DNA from: Candidatus Gastranaerophilales bacterium
GTDB taxonomy: Bacteria > Cyanobacteriota > Vampirovibrionia > Gastranaerophilales > Gastranaerophilaceae
Assembly (NCBI GenBank): GCA_944326015.1
Contig: CALVCJ010000014.1
Coordinates: 1 to 36,230, forward strand
Direction: 5' to 3'
DNA length: 36,230 bases
Shown: positions 6,604 to 28,678 of the stretch, in pieces
How the letters are laid out: each line of letters opens with the position of its first letter
Position numbering within the stretch: position 1 is the first letter of the stretch
Made by a program: the position numbers and the translations under genes
The notes under the pieces: model-generated
What the model was told of the DNA's origin: nothing
Seen by the model: the letters and a program-made list of their open reading frames with translations, nothing else
Databases searched by the model: none

Positions 6604-6897
6604 GTGAGGCTGGATTATTCAAAAAAAATACAAGCATTTACGCTTGCAGAAGTTTTAATTACTATTGGAGTTATAGGTGTAGTTGCCGCCATGACACTAC
6701 CTTCAGTTATTAACGATCACAGGAACAAACAGTATGTTGTTGCATTTAAAAAATTATATTCCAATTTTTCAAATGCAATAATTCTGTTTAAGGCTGACCA
6801 GGGATGTGAAGGGATTGATGTTGCTAGCTGTATTGAAAGTCTCGGATACGGCGACAACAATTGTGATGCATTTGCCGAAGTCGCAAAAAAAAAATGA
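6604..6897 (+). CDS. Pilin-like protein, N-terminal part (frame broken at A10)
   Basis: This 97-residue frame carries a type IV prepilin N-terminus: a short positively charged leader (MRLDYSKKIQ), then AFTLAEVLITIGVIGVVAAM with the conserved Glu at mature position 5 and a long hydrophobic helix. Ala replaces the usual Gly before the cleavage site, as in all pilin-like genes of this window. The start is a GTG with no clear Shine-Dalgarno; an in-frame TAA lies 7 nt upstream, so no longer form exists. The frame ends in KKK-TGA at an A10 run (6885-6894), and the remainder of the protein continues at once in the -1 frame (6894-7415). Rejoined, the protein would be about 270 residues, a normal size for this family. 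Either a real slippage or phase-variation site, a decayed gene, or a sequencing length error in the homopolymer. Confidence 0.8.
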   Translation: MRLDYSKKIQAFTLAEVLITIGVIGVVAAMTLPSVINDHRNKQYVVAFKKLYSNFSNAIILFKADQGCEGIDVASCIESLGYGDNNCDAFAEVAKKK

Positions 6898-6928
6898 AAT
6901 ATGTAGAGATGGCTCCTGACGGAGCATC
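6885..6928 (+). promoter_or_regulatory. A10 slippery run with downstream stem-loop
   Basis: Ten As (6885-6894) are read GCA-AAA-AAA-AAA-TGA, which contains the A-AAA-AAA heptamer. Thirteen bases later GATG(G)CTCC (6908-6916) can pair with GGAGCATC (6921-6928) around a TGAC loop: 8 bp with one bulged G. The arrangement resembles -1 frameshift or transcriptional slippage sites; the spacer is longer than the usual 5-9 nt. Confidence 0.4.
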
Positions 6929-7415
6929 TGCAGGTAGCTGGGTTCCTGACAAAAGTTATAATTACTATGGAGAAGAAATAAGCAATGGATATGGAATGGT
7001 TAATAAAACAGGTATAGGCTGCTTTTACGGCCTTCCAGACGGTATGGTGTTAAATGTTGATGTTGACCCTAACGCATTTAAGGTATTTGTTGACACTAAT
7101 GGGAGAAAAGGGCCTAACAGAATAGGGAAAGATGTTCATACGTTTACTGTCGGTTGCGGTGATATTGATGCAGAACTAACTCAAATCTGCATTAAAACCC
7201 AGAAAGATGTTTTCCCTTTTGTTAGCGGAACTTTTCCAGATCAAGTGACAAAAGGTCTCTGTTCTATGGAAAATTATCTCCAGGACGGATGTGATGATGC
7301 AAATATGTATCCAAATGTTTCAGGCGGTGCATCTCCTTCTTTGTATATTCTCACAATGGACAAACTTCCAGACTATAAAAAAATAGCAGCAAAAGTTACA
7401 GGATTTAGACCTTAA
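6894..7415 (+). CDS. Pilin-like protein, C-terminal part (continuation after A10 frameshift)
   Basis: This 173-residue frame starts with an ATG that overlaps the TGA of the N-terminal part (ATGA) and contains the globular C-terminal region of a pilin-like protein. Segments such as GCFYGLPDGMVLNVDVDPNA, FKVFVDTNGRKGPNRIGKDVHTF and CSMENYLQDGC correspond to the pattern 'hydrophobic DG strand, DxNGxKGPNxxGxDxFxF' of pseudopilin C-terminal sheets, with paired cysteines likely to form disulfides outside the cytoplasm. There is no signal peptide or Shine-Dalgarno of its own, so it makes sense only as the continuation of 6604-6897, reached by a -1 shift or by an 11-A allele. It lacks the GWKIPKDYP tail of other family members and ends in TGFRP. 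Confidence 0.8.
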   Translation: MKYVEMAPDGASAGSWVPDKSYNYYGEEISNGYGMVNKTGIGCFYGLPDGMVLNVDVDPNAFKVFVDTNGRKGPNRIGKDVHTFTVGCGDIDAELTQICIKTQKDVFPFVSGTFPDQVTKGLCSMENYLQDGCDDANMYPNVSGGASPSLYILTMDKLPDYKKIAAKVTGFRP

Positions 7416-13073: not shown

Positions 13074-13160
13074 TTTTTCCTTCTTTCTTATTTATAAATC
13101 AGCATAAAAAGGATAGCACAGGCATAAATTGATATCAAGACTTATTTAAATTTATTAATA

Positions 13161-13379
13161 CTAAAATCTGAGAGGATAATCTTTAGGAATTTTCCAGCCG
13201 TTCATTTGAATTAATGCCGTACAGTAAGCTCTTTCATTGCTTACATCTTCTTTACACCCGAGAGAGTTGTTATTGCGCAGCATTTCTTCAGTTCCGTCCC
13301 AATTATGCATATAAGGCTCTACACCCTTATTATAGTGATATTTGTTATTGGCTGCATTGCTCCATGGAGTATAAAACAA
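13161..13379 (-). pseudogene. C-terminal remnant of a type IV pilin-like gene
   Basis: This 72-codon frame encodes only the end of a pilin-like protein: NWDGTEEMLRNNNSLGCKED, then YCTALIQMNGWKIPKDYPLR. It closely matches the tail of the gene at 25126 (ALKTDSNYGCYSGSKYHGYC followed by the same GWK-PKDYP motif) and the partial gene at 1-80. The prepilin N-terminus, hydrophobic helix and the first part of the domain are absent. An in-frame stop lies at about 13395-13397 upstream, and the ribbon-helix-helix gene occupies the space beyond on the other strand. A deletion or recombination remnant; it could serve as a donor for gene conversion. Confidence 0.75.
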
Positions 13380-19742: not shown

Positions 19743-20839
19743 CTAATCATCAGCACTAACATCACGTCTCAGATAGTCCATATTGCCATGTGCCATAACC
19801 CAGCCGGAACAGCCGCGGCCATTAGTATCTGCTGAGCCGACAGCTTTATCTTTACTGCAGTACGGCAAATAGTAAATTGGTTTAAAACCATCTTTAGTTA
19901 AGAAAACATTAAAAACATCTACACCAAGGCGCATTGTTGATTTTTTAGGAAAAAATATCCAAAAATCTGCGCATCTGTTCTTTATTCCATAAATTGTAGT
20001 TGTACAATCTAAAGAAGTTATCCAGCCTATCTGAACAATAGTACCATCATTTAAATAGAAAGCTCTGTCGGAACTTATTGTGTAAGGCCAAAATGCCTGT
20101 CTGCCATCAAGAGATTCTATATAAAGATCTGTGTCTCCCTGAGGAACTTTTGCACTGTGAACATATTTCATCAGAATTTTCATAACATTTTCTCCGCCGC
20201 TATAGTCATAAACTGGATTGCCCTCTTCATCCTGTTCGCCGGTATTTGTTATTGACAAGCCCCAGTCCTGAATCTCTCCATATTCATTTGTAGCCATTAA
20301 AAAAGCGTTCTGCAAAACGGACATTGTCCGTTTTAACTGCGTAACACGTTTTTGCTCATGGTACTTTTGCATCAAAGAAGGCATCGTCATGGCAGCAACA
20401 ACTCCTATTATTCCAAGGGTTATTAAAACTTCAGCTAACGTAAAGGCCGCGCATTTTTTTAAGTGAACAGTGGAGCATGATGCAGATTTCTCTGCTACTT
20501 TACTTACTATGAATGCTTTAGGTATAGCGTTATTATTCTCGTCATGCTGAACCGCAGATTGAAATCTGTGTTTCAGAATCAATTTAGAGCCCGCAACAAC
20601 TTTGCGATAAAAGATTACTCCATCACTGATTAGGGTGGATAGGAGGGGCGATTGATTGTTATTAAACAACCTACTATACTTAACTAAGAAGGGAGTGAAA
20701 AATTTAGTAAACCTACATAATCCATTAGTACAACAGCAGCATAATAACTTTAATATTGCCTGACATACTGACCTCTTGCCTTCTGTCAGCTGAAAGTTGC
20801 CCCCCCCCCGCAAAACGCAGTGATATCAATATATTCCAT
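19743..20839 (-). CDS. Type IV pilin-like protein with long leader, start separated by G10 run (predicted phase-variable, copy A)
   Basis: The C-terminal 240 residues are a pilin-like protein: CAAFTLAEVLITLGIIGVVA with the helix, then a Cys-containing globular domain (DLYIESLDGRQAFWPYTISS, LGVDVFNVFLTKDGFKPIYY). Its frame is open upstream to a TTG at 20813, through about 120 residues that include the 199-bp repeat. A strong start lies beyond the G run: AAAAAAGGAGGAAG and ATG at 20839, with a promoter at 20874-20902. With the G10 seen here that ATG gives only MEYIDITAFCGGGATFS and stop. One extra G (or two fewer) joins it to the pilin frame, giving about 365 residues. The leader is unusually long and Cys-rich (LKLLCCCCTNGLC) for a prepilin. 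Possibly a contingency locus; a decayed gene with repeat insertion is the alternative. Confidence 0.75.
20612..20810 (-). repeat. 199-bp perfect direct repeat with G10 at its 5' edge, copy A
   Basis: This segment is identical, base for base, to 26013-26211. In gene orientation it begins C-G10-CAACTTTCAGCTGAC and ends GATGGAGTAATCT. Outside these limits the two loci diverge at once. It contains no transposase, no terminal inverted repeats and no obvious target duplication. In the pilin frame it is fully open (about 65 codons, from GGGNFQLTEGKRSVCQAI to LLSTLISDGVI). It lies in the leader of a pilin-like gene, as does copy B. Confidence 0.95.
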
Positions 20840-25125: not shown

Positions 25126-26252
25126 TCACCTATACTTCACTCTATACGGATAATCTTTAGGAAATTTCCAACCGTTAACCTGGATTAATCGTGTACAATA
25201 ACCATGATATTTAGAACCACTATAACAACCATAATTAGAATCTGTTTTTAGAGCATCAGTACTCCCGTTCCATGAAGCTGCATATGTTTCAAAATTCCAG
25301 GCATCATAGTCGCCTGAAGGAATTTTTACAGGCCGGTAACGAAAAGGGAAGAAACACACTCCGTAATTATCTGTTTTATTTCCAGCACAATTATCAATAT
25401 TTCCCGGGAAAAATAACCAGTCAAAAAAGTTATTTTCGGCTGTCATAAGTGAACTGCCATCAACAAAAGTCATATAAAATTTATTACTGTTATCATATTT
25501 CCCTGATTTGACGACTTTAAGATAAGGAATTAGATATTTTTCACACCAAGATTTTTTAGCATCATATCCAGAATTATTTATAAACCAAGTATCACGTGGA
25601 CCATAATTCAATTCAGCCATTGAGATTGCCTGATTCATCACTGAGTGCACTTTTTGCAAACGAGCCTCAACAACTTTTTTGTTATGGTTATCTATCAAAG
25701 AAGGCATGGTCATCGCAGCAACTATACCAATTATTCCTAGAGTGATTAAAACTTCTGCCAGTGTAAATGCGCATCGACGAATAGCGGCAGAAGTATCTAC
25801 CTGCGTAGTACATGCCGCAAGACTAAACACGCAAGTCCGTTTTAGTGGAGAGTAAAAAGTGATAAGCGTTTTAAGCACTCCAACAGAGGGAAGGCATTGA
25901 GGCAGAGAGGGATTAGTCGCGCCATGATGTAATCGTTTCTGCATATAATCTAAGTCAAATTGACCGCGCTGGTTCTGCATAGCACATGATCCCGAAACAG
26001 GTTCGCGATGACAGATTACTCCATCACTGATTAGGGTGGATAGGAGGGGCGATTGATTGTTATTAAACAACCTACTATACTTAACTAAGAAGGGAGTGAA
26101 AAATTTAGTAAACCTACATAATCCATTAGTACAACAGCAGCATAATAACTTTAATATTGCCTGACATACTGACCTCTTGCCTTCTGTCAGCTGAAAGTTG
26201 CCCCCCCCCCGAAATTAGAGGGAATGATATTTCTTTTATTTAACTCACCCAT
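25126..26252 (-). CDS. Type IV pilin-like protein with long leader, start separated by G10 run (predicted phase-variable, copy B)
   Basis: The pilin-like part begins IRRCAFTLAEVLITLGIIGI and ends with the family tail YCTRLIQVNGWKFPKDYPYR. The globular domain includes FYMTFVDGSSLMTAENNFFD and a Cys-rich loop (GNIDNCAGNKTDNYGVCFF). The frame is open upstream through the 199-bp repeat, but an in-frame TAA lies just before the G run, so in this frame the first start codon is a TTG at 26070. As in copy A, an ATG at 26252 (MGELNKRNIIPSNF) leads into the G10 in the frame that ends at TGA (GGGATFS, stop); 11 or 8 Gs would join it to the pilin frame, for about 375 residues. A promoter is at 26295-26323. 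The ATG has only a modest GAG 5 nt upstream, with AAAGGAG 13 nt away. Confidence 0.75.
26013..26211 (-). repeat. 199-bp perfect direct repeat with G10 at its 5' edge, copy B
   Basis: Identical over all 199 positions to 20612-20810 and in the same orientation, 5401 bp apart. The G10 is at 26201-26210. Beyond the distal end both loci continue with different REP-like sequence (here GTCATCGCGAACCTGTTTCG), which is translated in the pilin frame as CHREPVSG. Confidence 0.95.
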
Positions 26253-26294
26253 TATTACTCTATTACTCCTTTCATAATTAATATATACATAATT

Positions 26295-26323
26295 ATATTA
26301 TCATAATTTAGACTATTTTTCAA
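26295..26323 (-). promoter_or_regulatory. Promoter of pilin-like gene copy B
   Basis: On the minus strand TTGAAA (26323-26318), a 17-nt spacer and TAATAT (26300-26295), about 42 nt before the ATG at 26252. Confidence 0.55.

Positions 26324-26955: not shown

Positions 26956-28678
<1,723 letters not shown>

Follow-up and report, generated by a model that had tools for sequence, protein, structure and literature searches.

Homopolymeric contingency tracts are usually viewed as passive elements, with a drifting length and a reading frame that is open or closed by luck. In Neisseria pilC the tract sits in the signal-peptide region, and the CTTCT repeats of the Neisseria opa genes are located in the leader peptide. 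The opa genes form a multigene surface family in which the repeat lies near the 5' end and the copies switch independently. In pilC1 and pilC2 the coding frame of a pilus gene contains a G/C homopolymer, the length of which determines the ON or OFF state, and Neisseria has on average 15–19 poly-G tracts (PMC5953494). In Campylobacter jejuni, poly-G/C tracts at least seven bases long shift the frames of genes at 29 loci (PMC4965091). A conserved offset at a homopolymer, with the unshifted frame ending early, is also seen in genes with programmed -1 frameshifting or transcriptional slippage, e.g. in IS elements (PMC1088944). The pilin-like genes described here resemble all these systems in part.

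The window, i.e. the whole stretch of 36,230 nucleotides that was analysed, is contig 14 of the 1.99 Mb, 117-contig assembly of a Candidatus Gastranaerophilales bacterium (G000). Runs of G9 or longer occur at two places in the window, against 0 expected from 100 shuffles of it. Two pilin-like genes on the minus strand, A and B, each include a G10 tract. In gene B, a sigma-70-like promoter match (TTGAAA-17-TAATAT, 26295–26323, 9 of 12 positions) is followed by a Shine-Dalgarno-like AGGAG (26266–26270) at a distance of 13 nt from the ATG, compared with about 7 nt in the paralogues. The earlier note gave each gene its own promoter, but only weak consensus matches were present, with gene B being the one checked; promoter-type sites at the match level of gene B numbered 6 against 1.6 expected, which is weak support. 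The 5' module of gene B (26211–26252; MGELNKRNIIPSNF) includes the ATG (26252–26250) and 13 codons, ends with AAT TTC, and has kindred modules in two other contigs (C5 and C92) of the same genome. The G10 tract (26201–26210) would need one more G to bring the ATG and the pilin frame together. Past the tract the ATG frame reads GCA ACT TTC AGC TGA, so that this unshifted frame is closed at 26187–26189. The pilin frame, one base off the ATG frame, is itself closed by a TAA just 5' of the run, and a run of 11 (or 8) would join the two. From the run to the prepilin motif, the pilin frame contains a leader of 144 stop-free codons (25768–26199). The prepilin N-terminal methylation motif PF07963 (25708–25779; AFTLAEVLITLGIIGIVAAMTMPSL) and a DUF6613 (PF20318) body (25138–25698, E 5.3e-17) follow, and the gene ends at 25126. 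The motif exceeded the curated cut-off of 21.2 bits in two window pilins (22.4 bits in gene B, 23.7 in the other).

Gene A has the same arrangement: a start codon at 20837–20839 with a Shine-Dalgarno sequence (AAGGAGGAAG) upstream, a G10 tract (20800–20809) likewise one G short, a TGA closing the unshifted frame (20786–20788), and a leader of 118 stop-free codons (20445–20798) with the prepilin motif next to it, the gene ending at 19743. As the earlier note stated, gene B enters the tract in the codon phase of gene A, the distance from ATG to run being 42 nt in B and 30 nt in A (both 0 mod 3), and it ends at the same TGA, located just beyond the stretch first described. The 5' ends, called unrelated in that note, are indeed independent, but from the run on the two genes share 198 identical nucleotides, the G10 and the next 188 nt (20612–20809 in A, 26013–26210 in B, covering the tract and the start of the leader). 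Because this segment is a perfect copy, genes A and B count as one event downstream of the run, and since the sequence directly following the run was copied recently, the pair alone could not reveal an offset rule.

Other pilin-related sequences were also present in the window. A stretch on the minus strand at 13146–13227 is 73% similar to the 3' end of gene B and has no listed pilin ORF; judged from its sequence it is probably the remnant of a deleted pilin gene. A palindromic repeat (TCATCCTGAATTTATTTCAGGATC...) is located at 26957–27019 between groES and groEL, and repeats of this type occur also inside pilin leaders.

The survey covered about 250 runs from five species, the material including 47 loci from the genome of the window and about 300–400 kb from each of five relatives. 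Each run was assigned the closest frame that leads to a prepilin motif free of stops, together with the best ATG having a ribosome site, the starts being picked by a simple ribosome-site rule. This gave 192 scored pilin loci in G000, G001, G004, G007 and G019, the last being a held-out species. The assembly of the window's genome includes 73 runs of G9 or more. Among 24 species of the genus, 20 had 26–151 such runs, one had 11 and three had 0–4, while fifteen genomes of the other families of the order had 0–6; the maximum was about 150 runs per 2.2 Mb genome. In the window's own genome, leaders (L024, L038, L018, L057, L073) often contain a duplicated prepilin motif with an insert, e.g. AFTLAEGATHVDTTDNVRRVAFTLAEVLI, and also pieces of palindromic genome repeats. 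Four contig ends of this assembly (C92, C60, C46 and C42) break within about 65 nt of runs, which fits repeated leader segments being impassable for assemblers.

Of the scored loci, 163 were one base short of joining start codon and pilin frame, 19 were two bases short and 10 were in frame. At a run length of 10, found in 170 loci, the corresponding numbers were 160, 7 and 3. Thus 160 of 170 loci need one additional nucleotide, a conserved shift direction at a conserved tract such as marks programmed frameshifting. In the one-short loci of this length the stop-free frame spans 7–248 codons into the prepilin (FTLAEVLITLGIIG). The earlier note took the phase between ATG and run as the selected quantity and proposed to compare it across the genomic copies. 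This was rejected on the criterion set in that note, as all three phases occur, with both G and C runs: the distance modulo 3 was 0, 1 or 2 in 57, 19 and 17 of the one-short G runs of length 10 and in 17, 17 and 7 of the C runs. The total offset is the same in each of the six main pairings of run base with ATG phase, and of 71 clusters of 5' modules 66 had a sum of distance and downstream frame equal to 1 modulo 3. The conserved quantity is the frame offset across the run, i.e. distance and downstream frame together, and it is in this form that selection on the relation between start and run is supported.

A stop between start codon and run closed the pilin frame in 104 of the 137 one-short loci of the first four species, so that in these loci the frame is reachable only via the run. 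In the leaders of the same species the pilin frame had no stops in 4721 codons, and the two remaining frames had 352 and 519; the zero is partly produced by construction, the loci having been chosen for a stop-free path, and the weight of the open leaders must be judged from the frequency of such long paths in AT-rich sequence, with read-through of the run being what matters. The unshifted frame reached a stop within 12 nt past the run in 109 of 134 loci and the third frame in 18 of 134, the difference being weaker in G019 (15 of 26 against 11 of 26). As in contingency genes, the tracts are pure, lie in the 5' coding region and exceed chance, and, given the common offset, lengthening to 11 puts the gene back in frame, a state in which some loci occur. 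A search for the one-short pattern at A/T runs in general found none in the five species, while one window pilin has it. A prepilin-motif gene of the window without a G run (6604–7415) is split mid-gene at an A10 (6885–6894), one base short and with a TGA directly after.

The runs are embedded in a DNA motif, YC-G10-C-N7-8-AGCT, present at gene B as TC-G10-CAACTTTC-AGCT (26189–26212, minus strand), in which the G strand has C on both flanks of the run. Read along the G strand, AGCT occupies positions +8 to +11 relative to the run (its start at about +9 to +11) in both gene orientations, over a background of 3.2%. It lies 3' of the run in G-type genes and 5' of it in C-type genes, so the signal is not oriented along the mRNA. 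Codon-level conservation of the post-run peptide was also considered and rejected, as the codon phase of AGCT differs and it may stand before or after the run. In four species, leading-strand genes had 83 G and 5 C runs and lagging-strand genes 1 G and 30 C runs (Fisher p 7e-22, a value that overstates independence because the orthologous and paralogous loci share ancestry). The G strand of the motif was the leading strand, whatever the gene direction, in 113 of 119 cases, and in G007 the rule held for 46 of 46, the leading strand being read from local GC skew and only for runs with |skew| > 0.04. Base skew to the tenth power could favour the leading strand perhaps 7 to 1, and the strand rule could thus be partly compositional, but compositional skew does not account for AGCT lying on the G strand.

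Tract length was 10 in 136 of 148 motif-bearing runs (92%), compared with 80 of 147 other runs, the lengths of which spread over 9–15. In the assembled sequences, near-identical paralogues differed in length (9/10 and 10/11), and all cross-species pairs alike in both flanks had length 10. The held-out G019 repeated the length, frame and strand rules. Outside the phylum the motif gave scattered single matches, and among the matches listed repeated ones were mainly from Gastranaerophilales. Four matches were in viral contigs.

Four members of the genus serve as natural controls. G002 has 74 runs, but AGCT was present at the motif position in none of the 15 pilin runs sampled, and these runs have lengths 9–15 and mixed frame states, a pattern which by its sequences is that of ordinary phase variation. 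The long, spread G tracts of G002 (9–15; L338–L357) include many in non-pilin genes. The other three are almost without tracts and offer controls for how the switch was gained or lost: G021 has 134 prepilin-motif (PF07963) genes and four runs, its inspected pilins starting plainly with an ATG, a few codons and FTLAEVL, and G013 and G023 have 17 and 23 PF07963 genes and 0–1 runs. Non-pilin genes with runs, including glycosyltransferase-like ones, are often in frame at length 10; this was so for at least nine with frames open on both sides of the run, a result that speaks against lengths having been systematically miscounted. Among non-pilin genes with G/C runs (L036, L062, L109, L116, L122) some have the same flanks, and genes of this group are often in frame at 10. 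Loss of mismatch repair as the cause of the many tracts was unsupported, since mutS and mutL homologues were present (in G013 only a weak mutS match).

The reading we prefer, with a probability of roughly 0.6, is phase variation at the DNA level within a cleaved leader peptide, OFF by default through a replication-oriented motif that keeps the tract length. Genes A and B belong to a pilin-like family with dozens of members per genome, each with a contingency tract, a homopolymer of G10 or C10 as read along the gene, lying within a leader predicted to be cut off by prepilin peptidase; the genome encodes such a peptidase (PF01478, above cut-off). At the usual length of 10 the start codon is one base out of the pilin frame and translation would stop soon past the run, leaving the gene OFF. 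Slippage in living cells by +1 base (to 11) or -2 (to 8) would join the frames and give a complete, expressed prepilin. Tract and flanks form a directional motif aligned with replication and not transcription, accompanying a length held at exactly 10, for which it may be causal. Each cell would express few of its many pilins, the ON state being rare and short-lived. The length is held to 10 more strictly than in classic contingency loci, such as the Neisseria poly-G tracts with lengths of 9–20 (PMC5953494), and the tract could be one not meant to switch. Plain phase variation also leaves unexplained the preference for the -1 over the +1 offset (160 against 7); one idea is that a run of 11 is putatively less stable than one of 9, making ON brief.

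That same fixity, with its constant -1 offset, would suit a recoding mechanism, in which the DNA stays at 10, an extra base is inserted by RNA polymerase or a -1 slip is made by the ribosome on GGG/CCC codons, and the motif and the strand rule do no more than keep the tract stable in replication. An unshifted frame that soon meets a stop past the run, and leaders open beyond the run, are marks of programmed frameshifting, for which a conserved frameshift site is a criterion (PMC3711429). Against this, G and C runs both serve, lengths of 9 and 11 occur among near-identical paralogues, and in slippage data it is G-poor sequence that is called slippery, G-rich sequence being described as prone to pausing (PMC5574713). 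Because motif side and run base follow replication and not transcription, we favour switching at the DNA level and regard recoding as less probable, yet as the main rival. If the loci were instead ordinary contingency loci, OFF at 10 would reflect shared ancestry and a mutational equilibrium length, the motif having no special function. Modules and leaders are indeed copied between loci, and the modal lengths of Neisseria poly-G tracts are also 9–10 (PMC5953494). This account is unlikely, as six combinations of base and phase converge on one offset, AGCT is far over background in both orientations, and the spread lengths and mixed frames of an ordinary system are those of G002.

Miscalling of a true 11 as 10 has to be considered, as all data are consensus assemblies, mostly metagenomic, and poly-G is prone to PCR slippage. 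It is very improbable in view of the non-pilin genes in frame at 10, the lengths of 9–15 that do appear in G002 assemblies and the agreement among several assemblies of different projects; moreover, in fragment analysis of C. jejuni slippage products were a minor signal, with flanking peaks of 14–39% for G8–G11 (PMC4965091). The exact 198 nt of genes A and B and the leaders common to several loci would also be expected of a silent archive, where OFF genes act as recombination donors for a few expressed pilins. Such donors would have no need of the start, the usual ribosome site and the stop-free leader past the run that each copy has, and this is the explanation to which we give the least credence. 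Returning to default-OFF switching in the DNA, a more tentative extension, doubtful as it is, is that one of the template strands is read at YC-G10-C-N7-8-AGCT by a dedicated replication-coupled factor, which sets the tract at exactly ten or brings it back to that length, keeping a genome-wide default-OFF pilin repertoire with rare +1 ON events by an active process and not by passive slippage.

Phase variation itself is well known, but the default-OFF, motif-bound form was found nowhere described in the open-access literature, a search of which gave no paper linking Gastranaerophilales with phase variation and none relevant linking Melainabacteria with the term homopolymeric. If the proposed reading is true, how stable a repeat is and in which direction it slips can be set by sequence in cis, and a very large phase-variable surface repertoire is maintained in one non-photosynthetic cyanobacterial lineage of the gut. 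Compared with the present family, pilC1 and pilC2 are one or two genes per genome, have tract lengths of 9–20 and do not encode a pilin; to our knowledge, neither a flanking motif nor a strand rule or fixed OFF offset has been reported for them. The opa family differs in its CTTCT pentamer of variable length, its about a dozen genes or fewer and its unrelated proteins. In C. jejuni the ON length is set locus by locus, and we know of no pilins and no common flanking motif among its contingency loci. The IS-type slippage genes use A/T runs (PMC1088944), whereas in the pilin family run base and motif side follow the direction of replication. Set against the usual passive tract, the family has a length pinned at 10, an OFF frame apparently built into dozens of genes and a choice of base that tracks the replication fork.
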